A DNA stretch of 38,188 nt from a virus: the IMG/VR virus record IMGVR_UViG_3300042691_018486, positions 1-38,188 of that record. One strand, written 5' to 3'. The notes beneath the pieces are model-generated. The model was not told where the DNA came from. It did not search any database and saw only the letters and a program-made list of their open reading frames with translations. The translations under genes were made by a program, and so were the position numbers. Shown piece after piece: positions 2,997 through 7,375 of this stretch; position 1 is the first letter of the stretch, and each line of letters starts with the position of its first letter.

Positions 2997-5393
2997 TCAT
3001 TTCGCGGCCCCCGGGCGGGCATTTTCAGGTGCGAAAAGGCCGGTTCGTTCCTTGCGCTGCGCAGCGTCGTGATAGGGCTTTTCGACCAGCACGCCGTTCT
3101 TGATCCATGTCTTGACCAGCGCCGAAGCCTGCGCCTCTTTCATGCCAAGCTGATCGATCAAAACGCATCCGGCCCAGCGTCCGCTTTCCTTCGTCCCGCC
3201 GCGCGCCGAGGCAGTATAGCGGCTGCCAAGCGGGGCCCCGTGCGCGTCAAGAAGCCCGGCATCGATCCGGTCCAGCACGGCGTTGATCGAATGCAGGGAC
3301 ACCCCGTCAAGCATCCCCGGCGGGTTCCACGGCATAAGCGCGCCCACCTCGTCCGCAGGGTGTTCGTCGTCTCCGTTAGCCAGCGTGACGCTCTGCTTTT
3401 GGAACCAGCGCGCACGGCCCGACTTGAGCGACTGATTGGCCTTCGCGTCGTCGTACCGCACGTACAGGTGCCGGTCGGCTTCCTCGATACCTATCGCCGC
3501 CGCTTCTTCCTGCGTCATGGGCATGAGGGTGGCGCTGATGCGGGTGCTGTTCACAATCGCGCCAGCGCCGCGCACGACATTGGCATCGCCCGCGCCGTTC
3601 GCGGCATACTTGGTCGTGTGGTGCACCAGGTAGACCACGCAGCCGGTCGCGCGGGCGATCTCGTCGCGCCAGATGCGCATGGCCCATTTGACTTCGCTGT
3701 TGTCGTTCTCGTCGCCTTCGAACGTCTCGGTGAACGGGTCCACGATCAGCACGTCGATTTCATTGCGGCGGATGTAGTCTACCAGCACCGGCACAATGGG
3801 CTTGGCCGTCATGACGCGGCGCGCCTCATCAAAGCCCGCCACGATGATACCGTCGGTATCGGTGACGAGGTGCACCATGCCGCGCAAATCATCGACCGGC
3901 GCATTCATGACACGGCGCGCAGCAGCCAAGCGGCGGCGCTGCTCGTGGATATCATCCTCGACATTGATGACCAGCGTGCGGGCTTTGCGGCGCGGTTTGA
4001 TCTCGCCCCATGCCTCGCCGCGCGCCAATGCAATGGCGACTTGCAGGGTGAACAGCGACTTGCCCGAACCACCCGGCGCGGCAAGCATATGCGTGTAGCC
4101 TGAAAGCATAATGCCGGGGATGATCCATGGGCGCGTGGGAATGTCCGCTTCGTTGAAGTCGAAGGCGTCGACCACCTGCAGCGCGTCGGTTGGCTCAGGC
4201 ACCACCCCCGCAAGTTCCAGATAATCGGCGCCCGCCTCATAATCCGCTTCCCACGGACCCAGATCGTCCGCTTCCGGCATCGGTGCCTCTGCCATCCACT
4301 CAGGCGGCTCTGCGTGAAACTGCGGCGGGTAGGTCACGTTGTCCGAGCGGCGTTCGGCCCCAAGCTGGCGCAGCGCTGCCCTGCGGTCGCCGCCGTGCTT
4401 GTAATGCGCGAACAGATCGAAGGCATCGCCGTAGCAGCCCGCCGCGCACTTCTCGCCAAGCCCGGAAGCCGCGTCACTGCCCGACAGGCTGACCCACTTC
4501 GAACCCATGACGCGGGTTGCATAGGTTTCGCCGGTCTGCTGCGGACTGCGCCAATCCTCGTCATGGCGCGGGCATTGCGTGTAGCCGCACATCGCCAGCA
4601 TGTCGGCAATGGTGTTTGCCGCGTTGAAGTCATCGATCAGCGAGCCTTGATTGCCAGCGGGTCGCGCGGCGCGGCGGCGTTCGGCTTCGGCCTTGAGCTT
4701 GGCGCGTTCCTGTTCATCGGCGGCGCGCTGGCGGCGTAGGGCGGCGATACCTTCCGCGATGGTCCCAGCGCCCAGATCGAGGCCCGGCGCGTCCATGGTG
4801 CCGCGGCGTTCGAAGTGCAGGGGCTGGCCGTGCTCGTCCCGTAGCGGCGTGCCGGTCTTGTGCGCGTGCGGCACGTTCGGGAGATAGACGAGCTGGCCGG
4901 CACGAGAGAGAGCCCGGTCTGTCTTGATACCCTGCGCGTCCAGATAGGTAAACAGCGCCGTCTGTGCGTCATACCATGTGGCAAAGGGTACGGCTTCGGC
5001 CAGCGGCAGGATGATGCGCCAGCGGGTATCACCGGGGCGGCTGTGCGCGCTGCTGTAGATCAGCCATGCTGCGCCGCCCGTGAAGGCTTCCACGGCGGTC
5101 TGAATCGCGCCCCCGCTATGGTTGCCGCCGTCGATATCTGCCGCGAGCGTGACGAATGAACCGTTGGCCCGTTGCGCCTCATGTGACCGCGCGTCGAAGT
5201 CGCAGTAGCTTGACGGGATCATAGCCAGCCCGGCGGACTTCGGCTTGTTGTCCGGTGCCATCGTCCAGAGCGCGCTAAGGCTCCGCGTAGGATAGTCCTC
5301 GCCGGTCTTGATGCGGCTGTCCGCTTGGCCCCGGCAATAAGTGAACTGGTGGCCGTGCCATGATTGCGCGGCGGTTATGGGGAGGCTGCTCAT
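2997..5393 (-). CDS. replicative primase-helicase (AEP-like primase plus RepA/AAA_25-type helicase)
   Basis: A 798-residue replication protein. The C-terminal half is a RecA-fold hexameric helicase of the RepA/AAA_25 type: Walker A AAPGGSGKS at residues 438-446, Walker B DVLIVDPF near 547-554, and an HHTTK segment downstream. The N-terminal part has ADIDGG (about 85-90) and YSSAHSRP (about 113-120), which match the DxD and sxH motifs of archaeo-eukaryotic-type primases, so it probably primes as well as unwinds; that half is inferred. A Lys/Glu/Arg-rich coiled segment (about 220-245) and a Cys/His region (270-330) separate the two. It overlaps the methyltransferase gene by ATGA and is followed by the iteron-like cluster, which supports a role at the phage origin. 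Confidence 0.88.
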   Translation of the reverse strand: MSSLPITAAQSWHGHQFTYCRGQADSRIKTGEDYPTRSLSALWTMAPDNKPKSAGLAMIPSSYCDFDARSHEAQRANGSFVTLAADIDGGNHSGGAIQTAVEAFTGGAAWLIYSSAHSRPGDTRWRIILPLAEAVPFATWYDAQTALFTYLDAQGIKTDRALSRAGQLVYLPNVPHAHKTGTPLRDEHGQPLHFERRGTMDAPGLDLGAGTIAEGIAALRRQRAADEQERAKLKAEAERRRAARPAGNQGSLIDDFNAANTIADMLAMCGYTQCPRHDEDWRSPQQTGETYATRVMGSKWVSLSGSDAASGLGEKCAAGCYGDAFDLFAHYKHGGDRRAALRQLGAERRSDNVTYPPQFHAEPPEWMAEAPMPEADDLGPWEADYEAGADYLELAGVVPEPTDALQVVDAFDFNEADIPTRPWIIPGIMLSGYTHMLAAPGGSGKSLFTLQVAIALARGEAWGEIKPRRKARTLVINVEDDIHEQRRRLAAARRVMNAPVDDLRGMVHLVTDTDGIIVAGFDEARRVMTAKPIVPVLVDYIRRNEIDVLIVDPFTETFEGDENDNSEVKWAMRIWRDEIARATGCVVYLVHHTTKYAANGAGDANVVRGAGAIVNSTRISATLMPMTQEEAAAIGIEEADRHLYVRYDDAKANQSLKSGRARWFQKQSVTLANGDDEHPADEVGALMPWNPPGMLDGVSLHSINAVLDRIDAGLLDAHGAPLGSRYTASARGGTKESGRWAGCVLIDQLGMKEAQASALVKTWIKNGVLVEKPYHDAAQRKERTGLFAPENARPGAAK

Positions 5394-6058
5394 GCGGCTG
5401 CACCCCCGATAAAGAGATCACCCTGCCGCTGCGCTTGCTTGATGCGCTGGCAGGCAATGTCGAAATACTTGGGTTCGCGTTCGATCCCGATGAAGTCGCG
5501 GCCCATCTGGACGGCTGCAACGCCGGTTGTGCCGCTGCCCATGAAGGGATCTAGGATGGTTTCGCAGGGCGCTGGCAAATGGCCAATTGCCCACTTCATC
5601 ACGCCTATGGGCTTTTGCGTCGGATGATCGCCGCGTTGCTCTCCATTAGCGCGCAGCATTCCGTTCCACATATAGCTTATACGGCGCACAGCTTTAGGCA
5701 GGTTCGTCCATGCCAATTCGCAATCAGCGAAGTCGTTATCACCGTTCACCTTGTCCCATACCAGCCAGCACTTTGCTGCGGGGCAGTCATAATAATTTCC
5801 GCCAAAGATGATTTGCCAGCGGCCTGCCGCGCGCACTTGAGCCATGATCTCGGGCGCGATTGGTTCATTATCCCAATCGTCGTCTCCGTAGTCCCGTGTT
5901 GGCCCCAATCCCTTGCGTGTCTTGGCTTTACCCGCTGCCTCACCAATCCCATAAGGCGGGTCCGTAACCACCGCGTCCACCTTGCCCAGCGTCGGCAGCA
6001 CATCCCGGCAGTCGCCTAGGTAGAGCGTGGCGCGGCCAATCGTCACAGGTTCGCTCAC
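5390..6058 (-). CDS. DNA methyltransferase (N6-adenine/N4-cytosine, beta-type order), orphan
   Basis: A 222-residue site-specific DNA methyltransferase. The catalytic motif DPPY is at residues 33-36 and the AdoMet-binding motif DPFMGSGTTG at about 170-179, the order seen in the N6/N4 methylase family (Pfam N6_N4_Mtase). No restriction enzyme lies nearby, so it is an orphan, probably protecting phage DNA or marking sites for replication or packaging. I chose the GTG at 6058, which overlaps the preceding stop as GTGA; the longer upstream frame only shadows the 36-residue gene and the start of the Mom gene. The recognition sequence cannot be read from the protein. Confidence 0.88.
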   Translation of the reverse strand: MSEPVTIGRATLYLGDCRDVLPTLGKVDAVVTDPPYGIGEAAGKAKTRKGLGPTRDYGDDDWDNEPIAPEIMAQVRAAGRWQIIFGGNYYDCPAAKCWLVWDKVNGDNDFADCELAWTNLPKAVRRISYMWNGMLRANGEQRGDHPTQKPIGVMKWAIGHLPAPCETILDPFMGSGTTGVAAVQMGRDFIGIEREPKYFDIACQRIKQAQRQGDLFIGGAAA

Positions 6059-6165
6059 AGCCAACCGTCCTTCCTCAGAATATCGAGATACGCCGCGCGC
6101 TCGGCGGGCGGTTGCATGGCGGCAATGCGCAGCAGAACCGCGCGCAAGGCATCGCGGACGTTCAT
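6055..6165 (-). CDS. small protein, 36 aa
   Basis: A 36-residue, helical, Ala/Leu/Arg-rich peptide (VRDALRAVLLRIAAM) with a strong ribosome binding site (AAGAGGT, six bases before the ATG at 6165). It is locked between the Mom-like and methyltransferase genes by ATGA and GTGA overlaps, so it is probably made with them. No family recognised; it could be a small accessory subunit, but nothing shows that. Confidence 0.6.
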   Translation of the reverse strand: MNVRDALRAVLLRIAAMQPPAERAAYLDILRKDGWL

Positions 6166-6935
6166 GCGGCACCTCTTGAAATTGGAGCGGCCCCGAGGGA
6201 TTGAACCTCGCTCAGCACGGTTGGATCCGTGTCGTCCCATTGACGGGCCGCATGGGGTTTGGGGAAAGGCTGTTCTTTTAGCTTGACGCCTTTCGCAAAG
6301 CGCGGAGCCATGAAATACAGATAGCGGAACTGGCGGAGGTCATAAGACTTAGCACTGTCCCTGCCCGCTTGGATCACTGCCGCAGACTTCGACAGCTTAG
6401 GGTCGCGAGTCATCAGGCTGTTGTGATAAACAACGCCGTCCAATTCCCAGAAAGTCGCGGTGTGTTCTCCAAAATACCGAAACCCCGCAGCCTGATAGAC
6501 CGACCCAAACTTCCCGCAACGTTCGTCTGCGAAAGACTGTATCCATTTGATCTTGGGGTATTTGCGGCGAATAAACTTCACCGCATACGACAACGCACGG
6601 CTTTCAGAACAATGCGGCGCGATGTCATCCAGCCACATGCGGTTAAGTTCTAGATACTCATCAAGCTGCGTTCCCTCGACCACGCTTCCCCCGCTGGCCG
6701 GGTTCATCGCGTAGCCAAACTGCAAAACGCCCATGAACTGACCGGCGATAAAAACGCCGAGGTGAATGTAGGTGGCGCTATAGAACTTCCGGCTGTAGTG
6801 GTTGGCGACGATTACGCCGTTTGCAAAGTCGCGGCCAATTTCCTTGACGCAAAAAGCATCGTTCCCAAAGCCGATCACATCAGCCTGACCAAACAAGCTA
6901 GATTGCGCGGACATGATGTATGCTTTTTCTGTCAT
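6162..6935 (-). CDS. mom: Mom-family DNA adenine modification protein (GNAT fold)
   Basis: Mom of phage Mu converts adenine in DNA to a methylcarbamoyl derivative, protecting the genome from many restriction enzymes. This 257-residue protein shows the Mom layout: VANHYSRKF (about 43-51), a GNAT-like strand and turn IAGQFMGVLQFGYAMNP (63-79), LELNRMWL (95-102), SFAD (134-137) and SVYQAAGFRYFG (145-156). The ATG at 6935 overlaps the nuclease stop as ATGA; an internal ATG at 6914 is less likely. The last 30 or so residues are not Mom-like, and residues 229-251 are encoded by the tRNA-like fold at 6183-6251, so the tail may be an addition. A Com-type translational activator was not seen. Family assignment is by motif memory. 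Confidence 0.8.
   Translation of the reverse strand: MTEKAYIMSAQSSLFGQADVIGFGNDAFCVKEIGRDFANGVIVANHYSRKFYSATYIHLGVFIAGQFMGVLQFGYAMNPASGGSVVEGTQLDEYLELNRMWLDDIAPHCSESRALSYAVKFIRRKYPKIKWIQSFADERCGKFGSVYQAAGFRYFGEHTATFWELDGVVYHNSLMTRDPKLSKSAAVIQAGRDSAKSYDLRQFRYLYFMAPRFAKGVKLKEQPFPKPHAARQWDDTDPTVLSEVQSLGAAPISRGAA
6183..6251 (-). tRNA. degenerate or compact tRNA-Gly-like fold with encoded CCA
   Basis: Read on the minus strand, 6251-6187 gives 65 nucleotides with a perfect 7-bp acceptor stem (GCGGCCC/GGGCCGC), a 3-bp D-stem GTC/GAC around AATGGGAC, an anticodon hairpin CACGG-ATCCAA-CCGTG, a 5-base variable loop, and a perfect T-arm CGAGG-TTCAATC-CCTCG, followed by U and CCA. U73, the GCGG acceptor and a TCC triplet resemble bacterial tRNA-Gly(UCC). 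Defects: positions 8-9 are missing, the anticodon loop has six rather than seven bases, and one C is shared by the D and anticodon stems. It lies wholly inside the 3' end of the Mom-like gene. It may be a tRNA pseudogene, a tRNA mimic, or a fossil attachment site. Confidence 0.45.
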
Positions 6936-7375
6936 GGTCTTTGCCCGATCACCGGCGCGCCGCAGCCTCGCAGCCAATCAAGCGCCTTTTCCGGCGAGAA
7001 GAAACAGGCCACATCGTGCCCCATGCGGTAGTGCGAATTGCCCCAGTCCACTTGCGCTTGGGAAAGCTTCCCGGCGCGGCCCGAAGCGTCATAACCCTTC
7101 ATCTCAATCCAGCAGACGCAGCCGCCGGACCATGTGAAGCAAAGGTCGAACACGCCGGGCATCATGCCTTCTGCTTTGGCCTGGCGCTGTGCCTTGGGGC
7201 CGCGCTTGCCTGCGTTGGGGATGGCATGAACCGAAACGCCCGGCGCGCATTCCCGCACCAGCTTGCGGAGCATCGTCACGCGGTGCAGTTCGGTGAGAGC
7301 CTTGCGCCCGTCCGGTTGCTCCACGCGGAATAGCGGATCTTCGGCCAGCGATGTTTCGAGGTCTGCCCAGTTCAT
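6932..7375 (-). CDS. VRR-NUC domain nuclease
   Basis: A 147-residue protein ending in a VRR-NUC fold of the PD-(D/E)xK nuclease superfamily: an Asn/Gly/Lys-rich entry (AIPNAGKRGPKAQ), the acidic GVFDLCF, the catalytic pair in IEMKG, and the following QAQVDW helix. Family members cut branched or flap DNA and resolve replication or recombination intermediates. It sits among the replication genes, joined to its neighbours by ATGA overlaps at both ends. A role in phage replication intermediates is inferred from family and context. Confidence 0.82.
   Translation of the reverse strand: MNWADLETSLAEDPLFRVEQPDGRKALTELHRVTMLRKLVRECAPGVSVHAIPNAGKRGPKAQRQAKAEGMMPGVFDLCFTWSGGCVCWIEMKGYDASGRAGKLSQAQVDWGNSHYRMGHDVACFFSPEKALDWLRGCGAPVIGQRP

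Follow-up and report, generated by a model that had tools for sequence, protein, structure and literature searches.

How Mom obtains the group that it adds to DNA has been an open question for decades. In composition, this group (N6-carbamoylmethyl) equals a glycine residue, and the known product, N6-carbamoylmethyladenine, is isobaric with N6-glycyladenine. We know of no DNA modification that uses an aminoacyl-RNA as its donor. In Staphylococcus, non-proteinogenic tRNA-Gly is charged by glycyl-tRNA synthetase (GlyRS) and feeds pentaglycine synthesis by FemX/A/B. As is generally known, tmRNA and the tRNA-like structures of plant viruses have a tRNA-like end within a longer transcript that is charged by a host synthetase, but these have no link to an amino-acid transferase, and their uses are ribosome rescue and the translation or replication of viral RNA. 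GNAT-fold enzymes of the FemX type use aminoacyl-tRNA donors (PMC12945691), and the published view is that Mom uses an acyl-CoA such as glycyl-CoA (PMC7824862). In a literature search that covered mainly open-access journal papers, no paper linked Mom to a tRNA.

We analyzed a stretch of 38,188 nucleotides of viral DNA (IMG/VR record IMGVR_UViG_3300042691_018486), which we call the window. Its mom gene lies on the minus strand at 6162-6935 (ATG at 6935 and stop at 6164-6162; the longest open reading frame starts at TTG 6977). The product matches Pfam's Mom family (PF25680, 7.9e-66) with 222 bits, versus a cut-off of 27.1, so it is a member of the family. In an AlphaFold2 model (pLDDT 88.7), the window Mom is a single GNAT domain whose best match in the PDB is Mom from phage Mu (8bv8; Z = 29.4, rmsd 1.8 A for 219 residues). 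The two proteins, 43% identical in this comparison, share a family and a fold, and Ser124, which is mutated in 8bv8, falls within the conserved SES motif. The next structural matches are many acetyl-CoA GNATs, and FemX, whose type has a double GNAT domain with a tRNA-binding helix, is absent among the matches listed. In contrast to the window, we found no RNA of the kind that we describe below in Mu, and the literature assumes an acyl-CoA as the donor (PMC7824862).

The stop codon of mom overlaps the start of a gene for a DNA N6/N4 methyltransferase (5390-6172, minus strand; PF01555, 3.3e-22; phrog_67), and mom is preceded by a nuclease-like gene (6932-7375, minus strand; phrog_824, 6.5e-17; phrog_93 endonuclease, 1.1e-5). 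We also note that a nuclease-like gene is found upstream of or near the Mom-type gene in Pseudanabaena phage Pan3 (locus L098, 1483-1833) and at L099 (2636-3001), and that it is annotated as VRR-NUC in Pan3 and in Roseobacter phage CRP-902. A ParB-like gene is directly upstream of mom, or one gene further, in phiEf11, Arthrobacter phage Zartrosa, Microbacterium phage Appa, Psychrobacter phage vB_PmaS_Y8A, and a plasmid of Lactobacillus amylovorus (together loci L424, L425, L426, L428, and L429).

The Mom domain ends near 6258, and the remaining tail of the protein overlaps a tRNA-Gly-like element that runs from G1 to A76 (6183-6251, minus strand), inside the 3' end of mom. The acceptor stem is formed by GCGGCCC (6245-6251), which includes the glycine identity positions G1, C2, and G3, and by GGGCCGC (6187-6193). 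The D arm follows directly, with no positions 8-9 ahead of it, and has 3 base pairs and a 5-nt loop (GTC-AATGG-GAC, 6234-6244). Next are a 5-bp anticodon arm with a six-base loop that contains UCC (CACGG-ATCCAA-CCGTG, 6216-6231); a variable region, CTGAG; the T arm (CGAGG-TTCAATC-CCTCG, 6194-6210); and the discriminator U73 with an encoded CCA (6183-6186). All 20 of the 20 pairs are present, and the cloverleaf is the minimum free energy structure (-31.4 kcal/mol, z = -2.55). The sequence and the fold confirm much of the original prediction: the minus-strand cloverleaf with perfect acceptor and T arms followed by U and CCA, the missing positions 8-9, and the six-base anticodon loop. The prediction also had the D and anticodon stems share a base, which is wrong, as two bases (GA, 6233-6232) separate them.

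A GC-rich coding tail might form such pairs by chance, and its high GC content is all that favors this explanation. A strict descriptor that required Watson-Crick pairing throughout (7/7 in the acceptor stem and 5/5 each in the anticodon and T stems) matched the window once and matched none of 60 dinucleotide shuffles, with or without the CCA. When the mom tail was recoded synonymously 100,000 times, all 20 pairs survived in 17 cases. Given these results and the dozens of homologues that we describe below, we consider chance pairing to be refuted.

The element is not a canonical tRNA. ARAGORN does not call it and Rfam does not match it, even with E up to 10. Unlike a few of its relatives, it neither reaches the gathering cut-off of RF00005 nor is called by ARAGORN, and it lacks positions 8-9, the G18G19 of the D loop, and a 7-nt anticodon loop with U33. 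It does have a cloverleaf with a 7-bp acceptor stem, a 5-bp T arm, a 7-nt T loop, and CCA. The identity set of bacterial GlyRS is G1-C72, C2-G71, G3-C70, U73, C35, and C36, and all of these are present in the window element.

To identify relatives of the element, we fetched 80 relatives of Mom with the window protein as the query. Most of these terminate shortly past a PKHY-like motif, and three (L003, L011, and L063) have a cloverleaf at the same position as in the window, with different bases in the stems. A covariance model then added L064, L067, L068, L074, and Pan3, none of which were used in building it. (The window element scores 85.9 bits with the model R1, but it is one of the 12 sequences that R1 was built from.) At three of these loci (L064, L067, and L074), the element falls between genes, 85 to 500 nt past the stop codon of mom, and so does not encode a protein tail. 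With the Mom of L083 as the query, a scan found the element at 18 of the 21 nearest loci (L222-L242); of the three remaining, two stop no more than 25 nt from the match to Mom. Searches that started from Mom found further elements that were never used for the DNA patterns.

We also searched with a DNA pattern for this form of the element (type 1) that is blind to mom. Among viruses, the pattern matched 16 records, and 14 of these have the cloverleaf beside a Mom that is above the Pfam cut-off (three of the 14, L093, L095, and L097, have the same element in common). Some of these Moms (L089 and L092) are only ~24 to 28% identical to the window Mom. In 257 Gb of bacterial genomes, there were 13 matches, none of them above 23 bits, versus 74-89 bits for the family. 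A looser descriptor had 26 matches across ~107 loci, of which 23 are this element (some of the loci overlap), and 0 matches in shuffled sequence. We rejected L087, which is a chance match to the type 1 pattern with no Mom, and matches of R1 and R2 on a Variovorax plasmid, which lie among clustered ordinary tRNA genes, far from the Mom-like gene of the plasmid.

Some other sequences near these loci deserve mention. The intergenic type 1 elements at L224, L226, L228, L230, L236, L237, L239, and L241 are preceded by TTGCAGTT or a close match to it, always ~37 nt before G1; this is perhaps a phage promoter for the free-standing RNA. Pan3 has a second sequence (L098, 4673-4738) that scores 34.9 bits with Rfam's tRNA model and is not called by ARAGORN. 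L094 has a free-standing Gly-like cloverleaf of 64 nt (782-845); a TTGACA-N17-TATAAT promoter lies 9 nt upstream of it, and a hairpin and T run follow. The L094 fragment, of 9.9 kb, has a long VWA-type gene and no Mom, so although this is a plausible free-standing member, we left it out of the support.

In more distant Moms, weak matches exactly at the 3' end of the gene led us to a second form (type 2). These elements are 76 nt. Positions 8-9 are AA, the D arm has 4 bp and the anticodon loop 7 nt, and an A bulges from the T stem. A model of four type 2 elements identified 14 more loci with the element directly behind mom. A type 2 pattern that was blind to mom matched at least 120 viral stretches, and 77 of the 80 that we kept have a Mom open reading frame on the same strand. 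The element is 5' of mom in two of the 77, and two of the three kept records without Mom are at the edge of a contig. The type 2 neighbor proteins that we tested all belong to Pfam's Mom family. At L366 and L342, the element is at the 5' side of a divergent Mom-like reading frame, and at L366 it overlaps the N-terminal coding region. At L191 (4035-4105) and L192 (4431-4501), a free-standing Gly-like cloverleaf, preceded by a sigma-70-like promoter, is more than 1 kb downstream of a Mom-like gene. On the basis of these sequence comparisons, the elements almost certainly form a conserved family of tRNA-Gly-like RNAs that is tied to Mom.

The element has no fixed position relative to mom: it may overlap the tail, lie 85-500 nt past the gene, or precede it. 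In a tree of 90 Moms, elements appear in both of the deep halves, as do type 1-like and type 2-like elements each, and Moms without an element (Mu, JD024, and AT-rich groups) fall between element-bearing ones. This fits a helper RNA that was repeatedly gained, exchanged, or lost, and not the descent of a protein tail. We found no element in Mu, JD024, phiEf11, VSiP, PX29, or many AT-rich Mom phages, and none at the AT-rich Bacteroidota-like Mom loci that we searched.

Among named phages, vB_PmaS_Y8A has two different elements in tandem immediately after its Mom-like gene; its authors report no tRNA genes (PMC10434257). The element of Zartrosa has no encoded CCA. In Salinibacter phage B2_17, the depositors annotated the element as tRNA-Gly, and Appa carries a canonical tRNA-Gly(CCC) on the opposite strand, 33 nt past mom. 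ARAGORN finds tRNA-Gly(UCC) directly after mom at L156 and a tRNA-Gly 1.9 kb from mom at L210. The other tRNAs in mom phages with a nearby tRNA-Gly are for Asn or Met and are located away from mom. At the elements that we tested, Rfam gave no known RNA family, even at a permissive threshold.

The pairing is maintained by compensatory changes. Across the window element and 11 type 1 relatives, 97.1% of cells are paired, nine pairs show double changes, and the covariation score is 0.404, versus 0.101 +/- 0.020 if shuffled and at most 0.10 if slid. Although some columns were fixed by the type 1 pattern, none of the covarying ones were. In the window's cloverleaf, the pairs with such changes are all five of the anticodon stem, two of the acceptor stem, and two of the T arm. 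For type 2, the four elements of the initial model are 98.8% paired, with a covariation score of 0.738 versus 0.273, and in 38 elements of 76 nt, the 13 pairs that the pattern did not fix are 91.5% paired, versus 59.9% if shuffled. Among relatives, the pairing stays and the tail residues and the position of the stop codon vary; this is the opposite of identical tail residues without pairing, which the original prediction had named as counting against the RNA.

These changes also bear on whether the element is a tRNA fossil or an attachment site that was left behind by integration. Phages are known to integrate at tRNA genes and to carry their 3' halves, and the original prediction raised both possibilities. 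However, compensatory changes at free positions have kept the whole cloverleaf in dozens of sequences, so we reject the captured fossil. As for an old attachment site, the element accompanies Mom down to ~24% identity and in both deep branches of the family, and its anticodon stems vary freely between relatives, unlike the cores of attachment sites. Remnants of integration are refuted as a general account, and we think it extremely doubtful that they explain the element.

Which bases are conserved suggests what the element is for. We also searched 271 loci with a descriptor that demanded nothing beyond CCA plus the acceptor stem, anticodon stem, and T arm, and that left position 73 and the acceptor end free; essentially all of the elements found have U73 and GCG/CGC. 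CC is present in the anticodon loop of 12 of 12 type 1 elements, with C35 and C36 kept among the window's relatives, and of 66 of 67 type 2 elements. In the 61 type 2 elements with a 7-nt loop, aligned so that CC is at 35-36, base 34 is free (U in 36, A in 21, C in 3, and G in 1). Translating tRNAs almost invariably have U at position 33; here, 24 of the 61 keep it, and the other 37 have lost it. Type 1 elements lack positions 8-9 and the GG (G18G19) of the D loop, and the T stem, a region that EF-Tu binds, has the bulged A in 38 of 38 type 2 76-mers. (The type 2 pattern fixed this bulge; however, L198, L205, and further elements that models found have it as well.) Because the identity bases are constant and U33 is not, the bases that the synthetase reads are held while those that the ribosome reads drift. 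The retention of C35, C36, and U73, with 34 free and U33 mostly lost, fits charging by GlyRS and not decoding. The label "tRNA-Gly-like" in the original prediction is thus borne out, and the recognition bases retained by the relatives are a stronger ground for it than the loop sequence alone.

The elements could instead be ordinary tRNA-Gly genes that aid translation and are beside mom by coincidence. ARAGORN or the depositors do report tRNA-Gly in a few cases (L156, L210, L330, Appa, and B2_17). But most of the elements are invisible to ARAGORN and Rfam, the features just described are eroded, and the element is always Gly and nearly always with mom, so this is very unlikely. The element family does have the acceptor identity and NCC in common with ordinary phage tRNA-Gly, which is likely its origin, as those of L156, L210, and Appa are at or close to the canonical form. 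Unlike such tRNAs, the family is tied to mom and no longer has certain canonical positions.

Two other explanations accept a conserved RNA beside mom and give it another role. First, the fold might act in cis on the mom mRNA, by recruiting RNase P or tRNA nucleases that set its 3' end, stability, or translation, with no charging. The overlap with the end of mom is frequent, and tRNA-like folds are generally known as signals for transcript processing. However, processing needs neither C35 C36 nor U73, and these are kept while other loop bases drift. The RNA can also be up to 0.5 kb downstream, upstream, or duplicated, or it can be a canonical tRNA-Gly on the opposite strand. We consider a cis-acting role to be unlikely. 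Second, the element might be a decoy that travels with the anti-restriction gene mom in a cassette for evading defence, such as bait for host anticodon nucleases or for toxins that cut tRNA-Gly. The linkage to an anti-restriction enzyme and the retention of a loop like the anticodon of tRNA-Gly would suit this. But in two blind searches, the linkage was nearly exclusively to Mom and not to other counter-defence genes; loops of 5 to 7 nt with free bases at 32-34 and 38 would be odd for bait; and bait needs neither an intact CCA nor acceptor identity. A decoy also seems improbable.

We propose that the element is probably a dedicated, non-proteinogenic, tRNA-Gly-like RNA that is cut from the mom transcript and donates glycine to Mom. 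This is close to one suggestion in the original prediction, a tRNA mimic that is processed from the mRNA. The element would be made as the 3' portion of the mom mRNA or, in some phages, from a promoter of its own, and the host's RNase P and 3' nucleases would excise it. The host's GlyRS would load it with glycine, as it retains that enzyme's recognition bases. It would probably serve the ribosome poorly, because of damage to its tertiary core, anticodon loop, or T stem. Mom, with its GNAT fold, would then move the activated glycine from the charged RNA onto N6 of adenine in the phage DNA. Plain acyl transfer would yield an isomer instead of the product that has been reported, which calls for a further rearrangement: the free amine might attack C6 via a five-membered spiro intermediate, and this Smiles-type N-to-N shift would yield N6-carbamoylmethyladenine, as expected from general chemistry.

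If the donor is this RNA, then the locus carries both the enzyme and its co-substrate RNA, and Moms from Mu, JD024, and other phages in which we found no element must use the host's Gly-tRNA. We consider it fairly likely that the entire Mom family, including Mu, draws its glycinamide group from Gly-tRNA and not from a CoA ester, and that phages encode Mom and the donor RNA as one bifunctional transcript. A close analogy is the tRNA-Gly of Staphylococcus that donates to FemX/A/B. It likewise has weakened translation features, and charging by GlyRS and transfer by a GNAT-fold enzyme would be shared as well. The differences are that here the proposed acceptor is phage DNA, that the gene for the transferase contains the RNA or lies next to it, and that the core of the RNA is far more stripped (no positions 8-9 and a 3-bp D arm) or its T stem is bulged.

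The tRNA-Gly-like RNA that is linked to mom gives the Mom group a candidate donor, which could be tested in a few assays. If our proposal is correct, then the chemistry of translation would be joined to DNA modification, which would be the first such case known to us, and the 3' end of an mRNA would be the co-substrate of the enzyme that it encodes. The elements also make up a large family of RNAs that standard tRNA finders have mostly overlooked.
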